Source: Pirellulales bacterium | GTDB taxonomy: Bacteria; Planctomycetota; Planctomycetia; Pirellulales; JAEUIK01 | Direction: 5' to 3' | DNA: 64,000 nucleotides | Assembly (NCBI GenBank): GCA_019694435.1 | Contig: JAIBBZ010000003.1 | Coordinates: 62,001 to 126,000 of the forward strand | In this document: one piece after another, positions 6,024 to 14,436 of the stretch | How positions within the stretch are numbered: position 1 is the first letter of the stretch | Layout: the number at the start of each line of letters is the position of its first letter | Translations under genes and position numbers: made by a program | Notes under the pieces: generated by a model | Databases searched by the model: none | Seen by the model: the letters and a program-made list of their open reading frames with translations, nothing else | Told to the model about the DNA's origin: nothing

Positions 6024-8069
6024 ATGCCGCGTACCAGCGCCGCTGCAATCGTGATTGTCTGCCTGCTTGCTGACTCGATCGCCTTTGGGCAGCTTTCGTT
6101 CCAAGGGCTTGGGTTTCTTGACCAGCCAGGGCATTCCAAAGCGTTCGCCATTTCCGCTGATGGCACGACCGTTGTCGGCCAAAGCATGCAATATCCACCA
6201 CCATTGGATTACAGCTATGAGGAAGGATTTCGCTGGACTGAAGGCGGCGGGATGGTCGGGCTGGGAAATGAATTCGCCTATGTTCAAGGCGGGCAGGTTG
6301 ACCTATTCCTACATAATCCAGCGTTCAGCGTTTCCGGTGATGGTTCTGTAATTGTTGGCACTGGCGAGCGCAATTATGACGGCGAGTATATTGGTTATTA
6401 CTGGACTGAGAGTCGCGGTAATGTCGCGATATGGGGTGATATACCGCACATTGCCTTCGATGAGCCAGCGTTCCGGACCTATGGTGTTTCCGCAGATGGG
6501 CATTTGGCGGCTGGGGACTATTTTGATTATTCAGGAAGCGCCGATAGCGATGATGGCCCATTCATTGTTCCGCTAGACTCGTCAGGTCCTCCGTTTAATG
6601 TAGTCGTGCTCGAACAATCCAGGGCGATAGGCGGTACTGCGTACGGTGTTTCAGGGGATGGAACAGTGGTGTGTGGTTCATCCTTAGGGAGTCAGGCATT
6701 TCGATGGTCGTCCCCGGATGGCTTAACTGGCCTTGGTTACCTCACGGTGACACCGACTTCGTCTGAGGCTCGCGCGGTGTCCGGTGACGGGGCCACGATC
6801 GTAGGTTGGAGCAATTCGTCTTTCGGAACCCAAGCGTTCGTTTGGACCCAGCCGACAGGGATGGTTGGGGTCGCACCGACCGTTGGGCTACAGGCGGTCA
6901 TCGCCTATGCGACATCTCACGATGGATCGGTTGTAGTCGGTCAGGGCAAGAGAGGTGGGCAAGACACCGCCTTTTTGTTCAGCGAGTCCACGGGATTGCA
7001 GGCACTGGATGAGTATCTCAGTGCGAGGGGACTTGCTACTGAACTTGCAGGCTGGCGCTTGAGCGAGGCGCGTGGCGTGTCAGCCGATGGTCACCGTATT
7101 GCCGGCTGGGGAGTCGATCCTCAAGGACGGACTCAGGCCTGGGTGGCCACAGTTCCGGAGCCGTCCAGCGCCCTGTTGATGGTTATTGGGGGTGCCATGC
7201 TTCTCGGTCGGACAAACCGCAGACGCATGGCGATGGCAAGAATCGCGACCGTGCTCAGCACAGCGCTGCTGGTATTCCCACTGACCGCAAATGCAGACGT
7301 GAGCGTCAGCTTGAACTTTGACGCTCCAGTGGTCGGTACGATTGGCGACAACGCGGGCAATGGAACAGGATTCACACATCGGCTACCCGGAACGGGCGGG
7401 GCGATCCCCGCAAATGATCCCAACCTCAGCTTGACGGCCGTCCCGGGCAAGTTGCGAATGAACTCCACTCGGTCCGATTTCAATCAGCTAAATGGCTTTG
7501 GACGCAACCTCGGAAATTTGGAGGCAGCCGTAGTCTTTGTGCCAGGCGTGGGCACTCACGATTTTACGATGTCGGCCTTATTTGAAGATGTCGTCGTCAA
7601 TGGGCTGTCGGATCAGCTTACTTTGCTGGTCGGAGCAAATCAGGATGCCACGGTTCGATTGGGATTCCACGAACCTGACCAGGTGTTCGCTGTCGAGAAT
7701 TTCGGAAGTGGCGATGTTGGCGGTGCAGGTACGGGCTTGGGTGCTTTTGATCCAGGTGACAACATCCTCCTGACCGTGACTAGGGCAGCCGGGATTTGGA
7801 GCGTGTCTTGGACAAACCAAACCAACCCGGCCACCAGTGGATCGCTTTCGTCATTTACCGTTCCCTGGCTGGAGGCTTATGACGACCTGTATTTCGGCAT
7901 TCATGCCGCGAATGCTCGCGGCTTCGTACCCTTCACAGCGACCATCGACAACTTCACGTTGAATGTGGTACCAGAACCGTCCACCACTTTGCTCGCCATG
8001 ATCGGCGCCACCGCAGTGGGCGTCGTTGCCGCCCGCCGTCGTCGTACGGGGCTGTCGCTGACGAAGTAG
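6024..8069 (+). CDS. Tandem in-frame fusion of two PEP-CTERM secreted proteins (HAF-repeat beta-propeller + lectin-like domain)
   Basis: Start ATG 6024 has AGGGG upstream and is followed by a signal peptide (MPRTSAAAIVIVCLLADSIA). The first part (about residues 20-380) carries repeats of the HAF type: 'GHSKAFAISADGTTVVGQS', 'AYGVSGDGTVVCGSS', 'ARAVSGDGATIVGWS', each followed by an 'AFRW/AFVW..' strand, predicting a secreted beta-propeller. It ends in a full PEP-CTERM signal, VPEPSSALLMVIGGAMLLG plus RRR at about 377-402. Directly after this, without a stop, comes a second signal peptide (MAMARIATVLSTALLVF, ATG 7227 or 7233), a beta-rich domain, and a second PEP-CTERM (VPEPSTTLLAMIGATAVG plus RRRR). 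These were evidently two genes joined in frame. Whether the product is one chain, or the second half starts independently at 7227/7233, cannot be told; no strong ribosome site precedes 7227. Sorting would use an exosortase and EpsH-type system, not present here. Confidence 0.85.
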   Translation: MPRTSAAAIVIVCLLADSIAFGQLSFQGLGFLDQPGHSKAFAISADGTTVVGQSMQYPPPLDYSYEEGFRWTEGGGMVGLGNEFAYVQGGQVDLFLHNPAFSVSGDGSVIVGTGERNYDGEYIGYYWTESRGNVAIWGDIPHIAFDEPAFRTYGVSADGHLAAGDYFDYSGSADSDDGPFIVPLDSSGPPFNVVVLEQSRAIGGTAYGVSGDGTVVCGSSLGSQAFRWSSPDGLTGLGYLTVTPTSSEARAVSGDGATIVGWSNSSFGTQAFVWTQPTGMVGVAPTVGLQAVIAYATSHDGSVVVGQGKRGGQDTAFLFSESTGLQALDEYLSARGLATELAGWRLSEARGVSADGHRIAGWGVDPQGRTQAWVATVPEPSSALLMVIGGAMLLGRTNRRRMAMARIATVLSTALLVFPLTANADVSVSLNFDAPVVGTIGDNAGNGTGFTHRLPGTGGAIPANDPNLSLTAVPGKLRMNSTRSDFNQLNGFGRNLGNLEAAVVFVPGVGTHDFTMSALFEDVVVNGLSDQLTLLVGANQDATVRLGFHEPDQVFAVENFGSGDVGGAGTGLGAFDPGDNILLTVTRAAGIWSVSWTNQTNPATSGSLSSFTVPWLEAYDDLYFGIHAANARGFVPFTATIDNFTLNVVPEPSTTLLAMIGATAVGVVAARRRRTGLSLTK

Positions 8070-8076
8070 TTCGCCC

Positions 8077-8192
8077 GAAGATTCCCAAGGTGCCATCCTT
8101 GCGCGAGAGGGCACGTTGGCCATCTTCGTGGATTGAAGTGCGAAGATTCCCAAGGTGCCCCATCCTTGGAGTGAGCAATCTTGGCATCTTCG
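8077..8192. repeat. Two tandem hairpin repeats downstream of the PEP-CTERM gene
   Basis: Units at 8077-8128 and 8141-8192 both begin CGAAGATTCCCAAGGTGCC and both end ATCTTCG, so each can fold on itself (CGAAGAT/ATCTTCG outer stem; CCAA/TTGG and GTGCC/GGGCAC inner pairs in the first unit). They start 8 bases after the stop codon. They could act as a bidirectional terminator or mRNA 3'-end stabiliser, or belong to a dispersed repeat family. There is no T run, so a simple intrinsic terminator is unlikely. Confidence 0.6.
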
Positions 8193-8670
8193 GCGGCCAG
8201 CGAGCAAAGCTGGGTCGCCTGAGATGTCGCAACTGACAGCGCTCCGGGGGAACGAGGCGATGCGAGTATCCCATCCTCCCCATGCCGAGGTTTGTTACGC
8301 CGCCGTCGCAGAGCGACGATGGACTGGGTGTCCCGAACGGAGGGATTTGTCATTATCAAGGGTTGAAATGCGCAAACGCCCGTCTTGCCGCGAGATCAAA
8401 GCTGGTCGTCCTCAAAGTTGGCGCCTCGTTCCCTCGGTCGATGTGACCGAATCAGCTTGTTGGCAACCCTGTTCGTGGCCAGGACGGTTCGTTCTTCGCG
8501 CGCAAGGAGGACGACGGCTCCCTGCCGGATTTGACACAATCCCGGTCGCGTTCTCTGGCAAGATATTCCTCGCGCCGTATCTGTTGTGGGCAAGTACGAC
8601 GGCGAATGCCGACGCAAATGCTCCGTTACTTGGCAGCAAGCGAGCAAATTCCAGTTAATAGCGTACCACC
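8193..8670. other. Stretch without a supported gene
   Basis: Open frames on both strands cover this stretch, but none has recognisable motifs, hydrophobic segments or a credible ribosome binding site. If the palindrome that follows is an attC site, this could be a gene-less or decayed cassette. Confidence 0.4.
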
Positions 8671-8734
8671 GCACAACAATCCGTTGCAGACGCGACAGCC
8701 CTGACGGGCCGCGGCCTGAGCTCAATCGTTATTT
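8671..8734 (+). repeat. attC-like imperfect palindrome ahead of the HIT-HNH genes
   Basis: The segment opens with GCACAAC and closes with GTTATTT. Between them lie offset complementary arms (TTGCAG near the left, CTGAGCTCAA near the right) and a central AGCCC-TGAC-GGGC hairpin. Size (about 64 bases) and architecture resemble integron attC sites, but the outer core boxes are degenerate. The HIT gene's ribosome site starts within 10 bases after it, as in gene cassettes. This assignment is inferred from structure, not from a search. Confidence 0.4.
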
Positions 8735-8757
8735 GTGGAGAAAGGAGGCGAGTGACC

Positions 8758-9132
8758 GTGAACGGCTGTGTCTTCTGCAACCCTCATGGGGACAGGGTGT
8801 TCCTGGAGAACGAACTCGCCGTCGCATTGTGGGATGCGTTCCCTGTCACCGCGATGCACGCGCTGGTTGTCCCGCGCCGACACACCGAGGACTACTTTTC
8901 ACTTACCGCTGAGGAGTTGCTCGCCTGCAACGATTTGCTTCGGAAGGCACGTGAACTCGTCCAGGTAAGTGATCCCGCAGTAGAAGGATTCAACCTCGGC
9001 GCGAACATCGGCGATGCAGCAGGCCAAACCATCTTCCATTGCCACATCCACCTAATCCCCCGCCGTCGCGGTGACGTCGACAATCCCCGTGGCGGTGTTC
9101 GTCACCTGATCCCGGGCAAGGGAGCCTATTGA
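8758..9132 (+). CDS. HIT-family nucleotide hydrolase/transferase
   Basis: About 124 residues. An N-terminal CxxC (GCVFCNP) and the C-terminal histidine triad 'HCHIHLIPRR' mark a HIT (histidine triad) protein with the zinc-type N-terminus; 'LVVPRRHTEDYFSL' is the usual second conserved block. HIT enzymes cleave or transfer nucleoside phosphoramidates and dinucleoside polyphosphates through a His-AMP intermediate. AAAGGAGG at 8741-8748 gives 9-base spacing to GTG 8758; GTG 8752 is possible but too close. The stop codon overlaps the region where the HNH gene starts, so the two are translationally coupled. The position inside the element, bracketed by attC-like palindromes, suggests an accessory role, possibly handling a nucleotide signal or product together with the nuclease (inference). 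Confidence 0.88.
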   Translation: MNGCVFCNPHGDRVFLENELAVALWDAFPVTAMHALVVPRRHTEDYFSLTAEELLACNDLLRKARELVQVSDPAVEGFNLGANIGDAAGQTIFHCHIHLIPRRRGDVDNPRGGVRHLIPGKGAY

Positions 9133-9134
9133 CC

Positions 9135-10157
9135 GTGATGCACCCCTTCGTCGCGTTTCGACCGCGCCCCGAGGATTGCTGGCGCGGGATTATCCTGTTC
9201 GGCCGCAACGTTGCCACCTACAAGTTCGCACTCGGGCGGGCGCTGCTCGAACTACAGCCCCAAGCTGGCCAGCTTGTGACCTTGGAGGAGTTGGCGGCGC
9301 CGTTCTCGAAGTATCTGTGTTCCCACCTGCTGCTCGCAGAAAAACAGGGCACCTCGCGGGCAAGTCGCTTCTTAGACGCCTGCCGCAAGGCCAATGCGGG
9401 TGAGCTGACGCAGGAACAATTGGTCGACCAAGCTGTCCGGATCGGTTTTAACAATGTGATCCACGCGTTCCACGTTGTGGGCCGGAACGAAGTGCCGCAA
9501 CGGTTCTTCGTGGACGAGCGCGGCAGGGGTGGGGGAATCCGGATGACGCAGTCCTTCGCTGACCTGGTTGGCGGTGACCAGAATCCCAACCTACCGCTCG
9601 AAGCAGACGCGCGATGGCGGCTTGTCGAGACTGCGTGGGAACTTGGTGTGTCACCCGCGCTACTCACGGTGAACCGCGATCCGGCTACCGAATCGCTGTT
9701 CGTGGTCGACGCGGAAAGGCGCCGAAAGTCAATCACGGGGGCGCGCGACGCGCTCAGCGGTTACCAGAAGGGACACTGCTTCTACTGTTTCGACAGCTTT
9801 TCTCTTGCTGGAGCGACACCGCCGGACGTTGATCACTTCTTCCCACACTCTCTCAAGGCGGCAGGCATGGGTGGTCTCATCGACGGCGTGTGGAATCTCG
9901 TCCTAGCCTGCCGTCGCTGCAACCGAGGTGTGGCGGGGAAGTCGAACCTCATTCCTAGCATCAGGCTTCTTGAGAGGCTGAGCACGCGAAATGAGTTCCT
10001 GATTGCGAGCAATCACCCCCTTCGCGACACCCTTATGGCGCAGACCGGCGCGAGTGAGGTCGACCGCCGGGTGTTTCTGAGCACGTTCCACGTGCAGGCT
10101 CAGGCCGTCTTGATTCATGAATGGGAGCCCGTGGAGGTCGCGGAGGCGCTATTCTGA
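9135..10157 (+). CDS. HNH endonuclease-like protein coupled to the HIT gene
   Basis: About 340 residues. The C-terminal half has an HNH/zinc-ribbon core: 'CFYCFDS' (first CxxC), 'DVDHFFPHSL' (catalytic His block), 'GVWNLVLACRRCNRGVAGK' (Asn plus second CxxC, final His position replaced), then 'LIPS'. The N-terminal 200 residues are helical and match nothing I recognise; they may be the target-recognition or partner-binding part. Start candidates are TTG 9129, GTG 9135 and ATG 9138; AAGGGAG at 9118-9124 favours 9135. It overlaps or abuts the HIT stop at 9132, giving a two-gene unit. HNH proteins with this core act on DNA in restriction, anti-phage and homing systems. A defence role is likely from family and context but not shown. 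Confidence 0.82.
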   Translation: MMHPFVAFRPRPEDCWRGIILFGRNVATYKFALGRALLELQPQAGQLVTLEELAAPFSKYLCSHLLLAEKQGTSRASRFLDACRKANAGELTQEQLVDQAVRIGFNNVIHAFHVVGRNEVPQRFFVDERGRGGGIRMTQSFADLVGGDQNPNLPLEADARWRLVETAWELGVSPALLTVNRDPATESLFVVDAERRRKSITGARDALSGYQKGHCFYCFDSFSLAGATPPDVDHFFPHSLKAAGMGGLIDGVWNLVLACRRCNRGVAGKSNLIPSIRLLERLSTRNEFLIASNHPLRDTLMAQTGASEVDRRVFLSTFHVQAQAVLIHEWEPVEVAEALF

Positions 10158-10181
10158 GCGCCGGGACGCCATACGAGCATG

Positions 10182-10247
10182 GCTAACAACAGCATGCAGC
10201 GGACGGCACTGCGCTCCGCAAACGGTGCTGAGCGTCACTGCGTAAGG
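10182..10247 (+). repeat. attC-like palindrome between the HNH and EVE-nuclease genes
   Basis: It begins GGCTAAC AACAGCATGCAGC, continues with an arm that pairs imperfectly with the closing 'GTGCTGAGCGTCACTGC', and ends CGTAAGGT. Core boxes match RYYYAAC and GTTRRRY with one mismatch each. The length (66 bases), bulged arms and the GCAGC(G)GAC ... GCTGAGCGT layout are those of integron attC sites. It starts 24 bases after the HNH stop, where a cassette attC would lie. Its final 'TGCG.AAGGTGGGCG' recurs at the end of the 11782-11877 palindrome. Confidence 0.5.
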
Positions 10248-10388
10248 TGGGCGTGAACTGCAACCACGGAAGAGCACTGTACTCGGACGGTACGTCACTG
10301 GGCGGTTGGCCAGAGGCGAATTGGGTACGTGGGAATCGAAGCGATCCAACGTTACAATCCTGGACGAGGCGGGGCGTTGGCCAGATGC

Positions 10389-10522
10389 GATATAGGTCTA
10401 CCTATCGGCCACAAGGACGTTCGCACCACCCTGATCCGCACACACGCGTTGAACCGGGGCGCGGCGTTCGCAGTCCCGCTGACGGTCGTGCTCGACGAGG
10501 CTATGCGCAAAGGTTGATGTAG
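10389..10522 (+). pseudogene. Decayed C-terminus of an integron-type tyrosine integrase
   Basis: The frame at 10389 reads 'GHKDVRTTLIRTHALNRG', which matches the end of IntI/XerC-like integrases (GHxDVxTTMIYTHVLNRG). A one-base loss after the Asn-Arg then moves the homology to the next frame, 'GRGVRSPADG', the usual GVRSPxDxL tail, ending at TAG 10522. The catalytic Tyr position (IYTH) is Arg here (IRTH). Nothing upstream matches an integrase, so only about 40 codons survive. It cannot be active. Its position 140 bases after an attC-like palindrome supports an integron origin for this cargo segment. Confidence 0.6.
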
Positions 10523-10663
10523 ACACAACCCGCGGACACATTGTGACCTAAGAGGATCGGCCGCTAGTGCGATAGGCTGACAACCTTGCAGTCTATTGGC
10601 GGTACGCTGACCATCCTAAAACCAAGTTCGCGGACTAGCATGCACGCTCGGAGTATTCACGGC

Positions 10664-11764
10664 ATGAACTACTGGAGCGACCTGTTTACGCCTGAGACGT
10701 TCGAGGCGTTTGCTCGTTCAGATCGCACAATTTCGGGATTTCGTGAATCTCAGCGGTCTATGGCCGAAAAGGTTCGCGTCGGCGACAAGTTCGTTTGCTA
10801 CATGGTCCGCATGTCTCGTTGGATAGGCATCTTGGAAGTGATGGACGGGCCATTCACGGACAGCACGCCGATTTTCGTCCCTGACGACGATCCATTTGTT
10901 GTTCGATTCAAAGTTAGGCCTGCCGTATGGCTTTCTCTCGAAAAGACGATTCCAATCCACGAGTCGGAGGTGTACTCCCAGCTGTCGTTCACCCGCGACG
11001 TCAGGCCCGGCGGATATTGGCTTGGCCCGTTACGTCGCAGTCTAGTTAAGCTCAACCAGGATGACGGCGCATTCTTGGATTTGCTCCTGCAGCGCGTGCA
11101 GGCCGACGGTCGCACTTTCCCGGTGGACAACGAGCAGTATGACCGCGCGTTGAAGCGACGTATTCAACGGCCAGATCGTTCCGTTGTGGTTAGTGTGCCT
11201 GACGACAGGGTTGCGCCGACCGAAGAACCTGCGCAAGATTCAACAACTGACCGAGAATCGGTGCGCGTGCAAGCTGCCCTTTGTCGGATCGGTGAGGCGA
11301 TGGGTTTCAAGATTTGGCTCCCCAACGCTGACCGATCTCGCGTTGGCGAACATTGGTCGGCGCAGCCGGGAGTTCTGTTGGACCGCCTGCCACTGAACTA
11401 CGACGAAACGACCTTGGACACCGTCAAGCGAATCGACGTGCTTTGGCTGAAGGGGCGCGCCATCCGGAGAGCTTTCGAGGTCGAACATTCGACGGCAATC
11501 TACTCCGGCTTGCTGCGAATGGCCGATCTGTGTGCACTCCTTCCAAACATCAATGTGCCGCTCCATATTGTCGCACCCGAGTCGCGGCGCGAAAAGGTAT
11601 TCCAAGAGATCACCCGACCGGTATTCTCATTGCTAGAAAACTCGCCCCTTGCCGAGCGCTGCACGTATTTGTCTTACGGCAGCATTGAAGAGCTGGGGGA
11701 ACTTGATTACTTGTCCCACACCACCGATAGCGTGTTGGACGAGTTCAAAGAGTACGCTGAGTAG
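10664..11764 (+). CDS. EVE-like domain fused to a PD-(D/E)XK-type nuclease (modification-dependent restriction-like)
   Basis: About 366 residues. The N-terminal 150 residues read as an EVE/PUA-like fold: 'MNYWSDLFTPETFEAF', 'MAEKVRVGDKFVCYMV', 'WIGILEV', 'YWLGPLRRSL'. EVE domains bind modified bases. The C-terminal part carries a restriction-endonuclease-like core: 'VKRIDVLWL' (acidic strand), then 'AFEVEHSTAIYSGLLRMADL' (ExE-type catalytic strand and helix), as in PD-(D/E)XK nucleases. The middle (about 195-215) is an acidic linker. ATG 10664 is used because it coincides with the domain start; ATG 10640 is possible. The pairing predicts cutting of DNA carrying modified bases, or an RNA-directed variant (inference). 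It is flanked by attC-like palindromes on both sides. Confidence 0.75.
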   Translation: MNYWSDLFTPETFEAFARSDRTISGFRESQRSMAEKVRVGDKFVCYMVRMSRWIGILEVMDGPFTDSTPIFVPDDDPFVVRFKVRPAVWLSLEKTIPIHESEVYSQLSFTRDVRPGGYWLGPLRRSLVKLNQDDGAFLDLLLQRVQADGRTFPVDNEQYDRALKRRIQRPDRSVVVSVPDDRVAPTEEPAQDSTTDRESVRVQAALCRIGEAMGFKIWLPNADRSRVGEHWSAQPGVLLDRLPLNYDETTLDTVKRIDVLWLKGRAIRRAFEVEHSTAIYSGLLRMADLCALLPNINVPLHIVAPESRREKVFQEITRPVFSLLENSPLAERCTYLSYGSIEELGELDYLSHTTDSVLDEFKEYAE

Positions 11765-11781
11765 TCCTGGTGGGGTTGCCA

Positions 11782-11877
11782 GCGAACAAAGCACTGTGCT
11801 TGACGGGCAGGCGTAACGGTTACATCCCGTTCCTTGTAACCGGCCCGCAAGTGAGCGCAGTCGATCATTGCGCAAGG
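11782..11877 (+). repeat. Long attC-like palindrome after the EVE-nuclease gene
   Basis: It starts 18 bases after the stop codon. The centre is a perfect CGGTTACA (11817-11824) / TGTAACCG (11835-11842) hairpin with a 10-base loop; a second stem pairs GACGGGC with GCCCGC; outer arms run GCGAACAAAGCACTG ... CGCAGTC. The end 'TTGCGCAAGGTGGGCG' resembles the end of the 10182-10247 palindrome. The outer boxes fit attC less well than the 10-kb site, so it might instead be a strong fold acting as a terminator or repeat. Confidence 0.45.
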
Positions 11878-11982
11878 TGGGCGAGTCCTGGGCGCATTAC
11901 CGCTGCTAAAATCCTGCACGGCTGCGACACACCGAAGCAGCCAACCTTTGGCGGCGACTACGGTCGAGCGTTAGATGGGTGT

Positions 11983-14436
11983 TTACCAATCGATCTTGTC
12001 GAGGGTCTGCTCTCGGAGGAAAGCGTCCCGCATCGTCAAGCAGTGTGCTCGCAATTCGGCGAACGTCAAGTCGGCCGCCTGTTCGGCGAGTGCCGCCGCC
12101 TGTTGGAAGTCGCCGGCTTCCGCGTGGGCGGCGGCTAGGATCGCGACGGATTGCCAGTCCTGCTCGCCAGTGACTTCGAGCAGCTTTCGGGCGGCCACGA
12201 TGGCCTTCGTGCCATTGCGAAACCGCGCCTGCGGGCAAGCGGCCAGCAGCAACGCTTGCATTCGTAGCAACTCACGATGGTCGGCAGCTAACCGCAGACC
12301 AGTTTTGATGTCCCGTTCAGCCAGCGGGTACCGGCCTTGAGATTGGTAGACACGCGCCCGCAGCCAATAGATATCGGCGTCTCGCTCATTGACCTTCAGC
12401 GCCTGGCCGAAGTCCCTCATTCCGCCTCGCTCATCTCCCAGCATGACGCGTACTGCACCGCGGGCGGCAAGCGACGAAGTTAAGTCAACGCCGGCTAAAT
12501 CGACAGCGTGTTGCAAATCGAGAAGGGCTGCGTCCAGGTCACCGCGATGCCATTTAATAAGACCGCGGTTGACGTACGGCATTGGGTTGGCAGTGTCCAA
12601 GACCGCCCACTCGTTGAGGATCATTAGGACAGCATCAATCTCTTGATGCGTCAGCGCCAAGTAGTAGCCGACGGCAGTGAGCCATTCGTGCCGTAGCTGG
12701 TTACATTCGAGTAAGAGTTCGCGTTCCGCGGCGAGGGCTTCGGCGTGGCGGCGTAACAATTCAGCGATGCGTTGGGTGAGACTGGCATGTTCGGCCTGAA
12801 GGGCTTGTAATTGGAGCTGTAGGTTCCGCATCTCCGACTGCACTTGGTTCGCCTCGAAGTTTTCGTCTCGACGACGATGTTGGAGCAGCTGGGCGTCGGC
12901 TTCGCTTAGCGAGCTGTTGACGGCCAGCATTCTCCCTTCGACGCCCGTTAGGTTGGCCTTGGCGGCTTCGCCTTGGTTGCGGATGTCGTACACTTTCGAC
13001 TGCAAATTCTCGTACCGCTGCAACAGTGTGAGTCGCTGTTCGTAGATGCTTTGCAGCAACCGTCGCCGCTGCTCGATGCGAATGGCAATCTCCCCCTCTT
13101 CATCGCGGGCCGGGGGCGCCTGGGCCGGCACATTGGGCCGGGGACGATGGGGGAAGTGTTCGAGCGGGCTCGGTTGGGCGGGGGCCGATGCGAGTAGTTC
13201 AGCTAGGTGTTCCGAACTGATGGCAAAGTAGTAGCCCGTAGCATCCTTAGGGGCCCATGTGTTCACGCCAACGACTCGTCCACGGTAATTGACCAGCGGT
13301 CCGCCGCTGTTGCCGTGGTCAATGGTTGCGGTCGAGTGAATCCAGCGGGCATCGAGAGCGTAACCCGCGGCGGTGTAGATTTCGGCGGTTTCGAGAAGAC
13401 CAGATGCCGCAATTTCATGACCAGTTCGCACGCTGCTGACGACGCCATCCGAAACGGAGGCAATCAACCCCTGAGGACTCCCGAACGCGGCCACGCGCTC
13501 CCCCTTTTCAACGTCCGAGGCTAATTCCAACCGCGCAAGGTCTGGGGGGAGGTCGGGCACGTGTAGCACGGCCAGGTCATGCTCGGCGCTGGCGGCGACG
13601 AAACCGGTTGCTGAATAAACGGAGCCGCCCACTAGCAGGACCTTGATGTCCACGGCCTCATTAGCAACGTGAAAGTTGGTTGCGACCAACCCATGACTAC
13701 CCGTCAAAAAACCACTGCCGGTAGCTAGAGTTCCGTCCAAACGCCGTTTTTCGATCGTGACGACCGAAGGTTCCACGAGCTTCACCAACACGGGGAGTTC
13801 GAGGCCAGTGGCCGACTTTGTTTCGGCCGGATTCTCAGCAGCTGGAGGGTCGGAGCTTCCCGGAGGAGTGGGCGCGTCTTCTTCGGCCGAGGAAGCCTCT
13901 GCCGCGTTGTCGCCGATGGGAACCGTTGCCGGTTCGGTGGGGGATGAATCGGCCGCTTTCGCTGTGTCCGCGGCTTCTTGAGCTTTCAGCTGCCGGACTT
14001 TTTCCCGCAACTCGGCCAGCTCCCGCTTCTCCTTACCACTCGTGGCGGCGCGGAGTTGTTCATTTCCCCGACCAAACCACAACAACAGCGCCAAGGCGAC
14101 GGCCGCACAGCCGCAACCGGCCAAAACGATCACACGCCAGCCCACAGCAGTTTCTGGTTCCGTCGCCGCTTCAGAAATCTCCGGTGTTACCGGTTTGGCC
14201 GTGGGACGATCGACAGCGGTTGCCTCCTTCGGCTTGGCTGCCGCGGCCGCCGGCTGAGAAAAGAGTCCGCGAATCTCTCCAGCGGGAAGCCACTTGTTTG
14301 ATCCGGAGCGTCGAACCTGGTCGTGCGGGGATAGTTCCTTGCGACGAACCATCTCCTGGAGCTGCTTGGAGCCCATCGGACCCAGGACTTCCCCAAGGAC
14401 TTCGCAGTACCACTCGGTTCGCTTGTTTTCCGACAT
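11983..14436 (-). CDS. Membrane-anchored trypsin-like protease with N-terminal GYF-like and C-terminal TPR domains
   Basis: 817 residues in an unusual order. Residues 1-60 are GYF_2-like ('WYCEVLGEVLGPMGSKQLQEMV' and 'NKWLPAGEI'). One membrane helix follows (about 100-121, WRVIVLAGCGCAAVALALLLWF), then a Lys/Glu coiled coil and a low-complexity linker. About 210-405 is a trypsin-like serine protease with the full triad: His in 'VATNFHVAN', Asp in 'EHDLAVLHV', Ser in 'DHGNSGGPLV'. A long coiled coil (about 435-560) and TPR-like repeats ('PMPYVNRGLIKWHRGDLDAA', 'ADIYWLRARVYQSQGRYPLA') complete it. The GYF part should face the cytoplasm and the protease the other side if inserted N-in, but topology is not certain. 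It is the only intact minus-strand cargo gene of the element. Protease plus TPR proteins occur in anti-phage islands; a sensor-protease role is plausible but unproven. Confidence 0.8.
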   Translation of the reverse strand: MSENKRTEWYCEVLGEVLGPMGSKQLQEMVRRKELSPHDQVRRSGSNKWLPAGEIRGLFSQPAAAAAKPKEATAVDRPTAKPVTPEISEAATEPETAVGWRVIVLAGCGCAAVALALLLWFGRGNEQLRAATSGKEKRELAELREKVRQLKAQEAADTAKAADSSPTEPATVPIGDNAAEASSAEEDAPTPPGSSDPPAAENPAETKSATGLELPVLVKLVEPSVVTIEKRRLDGTLATGSGFLTGSHGLVATNFHVANEAVDIKVLLVGGSVYSATGFVAASAEHDLAVLHVPDLPPDLARLELASDVEKGERVAAFGSPQGLIASVSDGVVSSVRTGHEIAASGLLETAEIYTAAGYALDARWIHSTATIDHGNSGGPLVNYRGRVVGVNTWAPKDATGYYFAISSEHLAELLASAPAQPSPLEHFPHRPRPNVPAQAPPARDEEGEIAIRIEQRRRLLQSIYEQRLTLLQRYENLQSKVYDIRNQGEAAKANLTGVEGRMLAVNSSLSEADAQLLQHRRRDENFEANQVQSEMRNLQLQLQALQAEHASLTQRIAELLRRHAEALAAERELLLECNQLRHEWLTAVGYYLALTHQEIDAVLMILNEWAVLDTANPMPYVNRGLIKWHRGDLDAALLDLQHAVDLAGVDLTSSLAARGAVRVMLGDERGGMRDFGQALKVNERDADIYWLRARVYQSQGRYPLAERDIKTGLRLAADHRELLRMQALLLAACPQARFRNGTKAIVAARKLLEVTGEQDWQSVAILAAAHAEAGDFQQAAALAEQAADLTFAELRAHCLTMRDAFLREQTLDKIDW

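Follow-up and report, generated by a model that had tools for sequence, protein, structure and literature searches.

What does a HIT hydrolase, a member of a group of enzymes usually regarded as housekeeping, do directly ahead of an HNH nuclease gene? The window analysed here, a stretch of 64,000 nucleotides from a Pirellulales bacterium, contains such a pair among ordinary planctomycete genes (kinases, PEP-CTERM). The original prediction for this DNA took the two genes to be a coupled unit within a mobile island. The features of the pair are as follows.

8743..8748, + strand: Shine-Dalgarno sequence AGGAGG, 9 bases before the GTG at 8758 and 3 before the GTG at 8752
8758..9132, + strand: HIT hydrolase of the PRGGVR subfamily, 124 amino acids (Pfam HIT, 2.2e-18; alignment A8)
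9037..9057, + strand: HIT catalytic motif HCHIHLI (HxHxHxx), from the sequence
9138..10157, + strand: winged-helix and HNH nuclease, clade 1 of the YKFA-HNH family, 339 amino acids (N-termini of homologues, profile, AlphaFold2)
9150..9656, + strand: N-terminal winged-helix domain with a near-invariant YK motif, Y31-K32 (AlphaFold2, pLDDT 94)
9723..10019, + strand: HNH domain, CFYC...DVDHF..P...WNLVLAC..CNR (Pfam; profile match to the Cas9 HNH)

The open reading frame listed for the HIT gene spans 8752-9132 (+) and would encode 126 amino acids if it started at 8752; GTG 8758 is favoured because of its spacing from the AGGAGG. The product has the HIT fold and the intact HxHxHxx motif that define the HIT superfamily, and the three histidines of this motif are invariant in all 18 of the HNH-paired HITs that were aligned. 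Nearly all of these proteins share with it a C-terminal PRGGVR extension, which is absent from the two further HIT genes of the genome, both of another type. As judged from sequence, the HIT gene of the window is not a housekeeping copy.

The frame listed for the nuclease, 9129-10157 (+), would encode 342 amino acids from a TTG at 9129, and ATG 9138 is favoured because of the N-termini of its homologues. With the favoured starts, 5 bases separate the two genes, and with the listed starts (TTG for the nuclease) they overlap by 4 bases; the predicted genes abut whichever starts are used. An AlphaFold2 model of the nuclease (pLDDT 91) places a winged-helix-type domain at residues 12-167 and the HNH domain near residues 199-297. 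The Pfam HNH match of the window protein alone is weak (0.0051), while the family profile matches the HNH chains of Cas9 at 6e-6 and the model aligns with the Cas9 HNH at a Z of about 6. The catalytic residues D235, H236, N256, and N265 are invariant across 81 homologues, and the protein has the beta-beta-alpha-metal arrangement with catalytic His and Asn by which the HNH superfamily is recognized.

The best structural match of the full model is the sulfur-binding domain (SBD) of Hga in complex with phosphorothioated DNA (VIA Z 7.9), followed by the SBD of ScoMcrA. The Hga domain is again the best match of the N-terminal domain alone (VIA Z 7.4), although a Z below 8 may reflect a common arrangement; the superpositions cover 114-115 of 146 residues at an rmsd of 3.2-3.3. 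The sulfur pocket of SBDs consists of an H/Y-R/K/Q element and a Y-P element (PMC6224610, PMC7470945). Y31-K32 is retained in the YKFA-HNH family at the start of the helix that corresponds to the SBD pocket helix, and R80, which varies in the family, stands where the pocket proline would be expected (the register being taken from the order of secondary structure). Alignment of the N-terminal domain with seven SBD sequences gave no sequence support (hhalign, probability 0.9%), Foldseek found no significant relative of it (E 0.7 or worse), and NCBIfam NF045808 had no match in the genome at E <= 0.001. Membership in the SBD-HNH family was rejected: the resemblance, at a Z below 8, is confined to the fold, and the sequence profile and the pocket proline fail. 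The modelled domain is best described as no more than an SBD-like winged helix, and dependence on phosphorothioate is not predicted.

Among 84,980 species genomes scanned, 501 relatives of the nuclease were identified; the family aligns over its whole length at about 50% identity. A search of plasmids gave 10. IMG/VR contigs gave only a handful of relatives and 50,697 phage records gave none, and a homing endonuclease of phages was rejected on these last two results. Complete E. coli genomes gave no match to a DNA search with a Citrobacter copy, run in "distant" mode only. Within the phylum of the window, 9 of 392 genomes have a nuclease match at E <= 0.001, some of them weak. The family includes a second clade, which is distantly homologous to clade 1 over its full length (hhalign: probability 99%, E 8e-19, 287 columns) and keeps the T/S-Y-K-F-A motif and the HNH domain, as at locus L008.

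To describe the partners of the nuclease, we read the immediate neighbours at 92 nuclease loci. A HIT gene adjoins the nuclease at 17 of these, which has a probability of about 3e-32 under random placement if kinship is ignored. It lies upstream, downstream, or in convergent orientation with a 4-base overlap. Pairs of this kind occur in Planctomycetota, Pseudomonadota, Bacteroidota, Thermodesulfobacteriota, Nitrospirota, and further groups. The prediction that the two genes form a coupled unit is therefore borne out, by their abutment and by a pairing kept across phyla. It was to be abandoned if the pairing proved unconserved or the HIT a plain housekeeping copy; instead, the pairing extends through several phyla and the HIT belongs to a distinct subfamily.

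At 65 of the 92 loci (63 plus two mis-called cases), the immediate neighbour is a class I SAM methyltransferase. Both partners occur together at none of the 92, where 12 such loci would be expected under independence (P = 6e-12, kinship ignored). On a nuclease tree of 81 rows, the HIT label needs eight changes, at least four of them on well-supported branches, which means repeated exchange of partners rather than one ancestral pair; for example, locus L035, with a methyltransferase, groups with L040, with a HIT, at 100/99. The either-or choice is seen again in clade 2, which has a HIT at seven loci (L007, L008, L111, L112, L124, L125, and L152) and a methyltransferase or its remains at three (L119, with a broken copy at L118 and a remnant at L120). 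The broken and remnant genes (L118 4389-4990 and L120 4775-4975) lie directly upstream of intact clade 2 HNH genes, indicating that the partner can go while the nuclease frame stays open. In Geobacter sp. OR-1, each clade is represented by one HIT-HNH pair (L040 and L152), and a gene for a Vsr-like mismatch endonuclease lies directly upstream of its clade 2 pair (L152 2523-3406). As read from gene order, two or three partners can stand in for one another beside the nuclease; the HIT is only one of them, and the methyltransferase is the commoner.

A possible third partner is a MazG-like or NTP-pyrophosphohydrolase gene, which takes the place of the others or lies nearby in two copies from Synechococcus and two from plasmids. 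The cyanobacterial copies at the loci read otherwise have no recognized partner. Six cyanobacterial loci (L012, L013, L015, L062, L075, and L096) have a divergent gene of 145-152 amino acids upstream of the nuclease, and that of L012 has a match in the gp82 family of Mycobacterium phage L5 (PF25735, 1.7e-19). The partner methyltransferase has GCGSGRD as motif I; its motif IV position reads WaCASLLHvp, without the [DNS]PP[YF] that marks amino-methyl DNA methylases, and it is placed by Pfam among Methyltransf_25/11/TehB-type proteins.

The partners are also found fused to nucleases. Winged helix, HNH, and HIT are joined in single open reading frames at five loci (L240, L241, L243, L247, and L250; Pfam HNH about 1e-13, HIT 1e-16 to 1e-19), of which L243 and L250 are near-copies within one genome. 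At L132 (3-1559), a frame truncated by the start of its contig contains a methyltransferase and, fused to it, a third variant of the YKFA-HNH protein. A reverse survey, covering about 590 genomes from two phyla, gave 28 strong matches to the HIT profile; seven have an adjacent HNH, five are fused to an HNH, and nine form the N-terminus of a long open reading frame (L212, L213, L215, L216, L217, L218, L219, L221, and L246), the HNH share being inflated because HNH-paired HITs had served to build the profile. The one long frame that was checked, L217, carries its PRGGVR-type HIT on a SauUSI-like PLD-helicase (PADLOC mREase_IV, 1.1e-57). The presence of this HIT in cis with nucleases of two folds suggests that it acts on something that the nucleases make or sense. 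Separately, one row of L214 (1-1899) holds, on one strand, a HIT, an HNH protein that opens with the TYKVSLILVILDAI motif, and the first part of a cytosine-C5 methyltransferase.

Defence genes are annotated within about 6 kb of the nuclease at several loci, and the next gene after the pair of the window, about 0.4 kb downstream, is probably of this kind.

10586..11764, + strand: gene with an EVE domain (modified-base reader type) and a REase_II match (Pfam EVE, 0.004; PADLOC REase_II, 1.2e-16; NCBIfam PRK00809, 1.2e-6)

It is probably a modification-dependent restriction gene and the second restriction gene of the island. Elsewhere, the neighbours include type III-like and type I restriction-modification genes and a PLD/DEAD helicase. 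By locus, they include a helicase and a site-specific DNA methyltransferase (L014), type I restriction-modification (L016), a DNA methyltransferase with a BPTD_3080 restriction enzyme (L017), N-6 methylase and PLD-type genes (L018), McrBC with type I restriction-modification (L118), CRISPR I-Fv (L119), and BREX (L120); at some nuclease loci, no gene of known defence function lies close by. The clustering with defence genes that had been proposed as a check is thus observed, with restriction-modification, McrBC, BREX, and CRISPR systems among the neighbours.

That the island is mobile, also part of the original prediction, is plausible. A pair with 82% DNA identity to that of the window over 1444 bases is present on a Nitrospira-binned contig (L024), where the HNH frame is broken; protein identity to most other relatives is about 50-57%. 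In both places, an attC-like element lies 3' of the pair.

10177..10245, + strand: attC-like element GGCTAACAACAGCATGCAGCGGAC..., a single copy in the genome, found also at L024 4034-4100

This suggests that the pair may have moved as a cassette. A palindrome upstream of the pair (8671-8738) is without a proper GTT core, and Rfam has no match within 7900-12100. An integron-cassette reading of the pair is only suggestive.

The HIT-HNH pair appears to be an anti-phage module not described before, in which the second part can be exchanged. With moderate confidence, we read it as a two-component defence module of the restriction type, composed of an HNH cutter and a catalytic HIT accessory. The N-terminal winged-helix domain would bind DNA and probably recognize a modification of it or another non-self feature, and the HNH domain would cut the bound foreign DNA. 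The HIT would act jointly with the cutter and would probably take a nucleotidyl group off a reaction product or ligand; candidate substrates are a modified nucleotide, an adenylated end, or a nucleotide-type regulator. Since a class I SAM methyltransferase can fill the slot of the HIT, the partner would be an accessory or regulator and not the cutter. The pairing, its conservation, the exclusivity and switching of partners, the fusions, the intact motifs, and the defence neighbours are all read from sequence. DNA as the target, dependence on modification, and the substrate of the HIT are what we infer, and the case for modification is indirect because the SBD homology lacks profile support and the pocket proline is not conserved. 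A methyltransferase does not obviously fit a nucleotide-handling role, which counts against this reading, as do the loci that lack a known defence gene in their surroundings.

A broader possibility, put forward tentatively, is that these loci belong to a broad, unnamed group of defence nucleases in which a constant cutter is combined with a swappable enzyme slot. A HIT, a small class I methyltransferase, and perhaps a MazG-like enzyme would then bring unrelated chemistries to one job, for example making cut ends unrepairable or covalently licensing the nuclease.

The tight coupling, free gene order, and exclusive partners would also fit a self-harming HNH kept in check, as in type VII toxin-antitoxin systems, by a partner that adds a modification to it or takes one away; the HIT would strip a nucleotidyl group and the methyltransferase would methylate. 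The intact partner sequences and the plasmid location of some copies agree with this, yet about ten or more loci, many of them cyanobacterial, have an intact nuclease with neither partner, some partners are fused in cis, and neighbours and fusions point to restriction enzymes, so that we consider it unlikely. The toxin-like nuclease of the original prediction, controlled by or releasing a nucleotide, is conceivable but unsupported as written; what the nuclease and the HIT are fused to, and what lies near them, favour restriction of modified DNA over a classical toxin.

The occurrence of the PRGGVR HIT in cis with two unrelated nuclease folds, HNH and PLD-helicase, could instead reflect end processing, in which the HNH cuts foreign DNA and the partner makes the ends unjoinable. 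The HIT would de-adenylate ligase intermediates like aprataxin and the methyltransferase would cap the ends; this purely inferred scheme appears rather improbable to us. Classical restriction-modification, in which the methyltransferase shields self DNA from the HNH enzyme, would account for the methyltransferase beside the nuclease in most copies and for the cytosine-C5 methyltransferase start in L214. However, the HIT variants have no modifying enzyme alongside, no cognate DNA methyltransferase adjoins the pair in the window, and the partner methyltransferase, with WaCASLLHvp in place of the DNA-methylase motif and its Methyltransf_25/11/TehB-type placement, led us to reject this explanation as very unlikely. 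Finally, HNH genes are common and homing HNHs exist, but a chance meeting of a housekeeping HIT with a homing-type HNH is hardly credible and was rejected, given a pair conserved in several phyla, exclusive partners, fusions, a distinct HIT subfamily, and the lack of matches among the phage records.

One HIT subfamily is tied, through operons and fusions, to nucleases of two unrelated folds near defence systems. The either-or choice of HIT or methyltransferase on one nuclease suggests that two chemistries may solve one problem, and the role of nucleotide-handling enzymes inside defence islands becomes directly testable.

No named system with this pair had been recognized in the original prediction, and in agreement with it no published description of a HIT-HNH pair in defence was found in the open-licence literature or defence libraries searched. 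Several known systems share parts with it. In Thoeris type II, a HIT-family protein, ThsC, is the third component (PMC8565338); the similarity of the window HIT to ThsC is weak (3.8e-8), and the TIR and NADase effectors of Thoeris are not seen at the pair, with no TIR or SIR2 among the selected window frames that were scanned. The HNH domain is weakly similar to those of Septu PtuB and PDC-M01B (1.2e-5 and 5e-5), but Septu requires the PtuA ATPase, which is absent beside the window nuclease, where the neighbours are the HIT and the EVE/REase gene. The PADLOC mad2 model of the MADS defence system is matched in its C-terminal half by the alternative methyltransferase partner (1e-12 to 1e-18), which is itself a free-standing protein of 200 amino acids next to the HNH. 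SauUSI-type type IV enzymes (PLD-helicase-DUF3427) carry the PRGGVR HIT subfamily at their N-terminus in several genomes, whereas the HIT of the window is a separate gene and its effector an HNH protein without a helicase. In the SBD-HNH enzymes ScoMcrA, SprMcrA, and EcoWI (PMC6224610, PMC7461809, PMC7470945), a winged-helix-like DNA reader precedes the HNH domain, as a predicted one does here, and where the second helix begins they share a Y/H-K with the window nuclease (Y31-Q32 in SprMcrA, H116-R117 in ScoMcrA). The window nuclease differs from them in having another HNH subtype and a coupled partner gene, a HIT or a methyltransferase.
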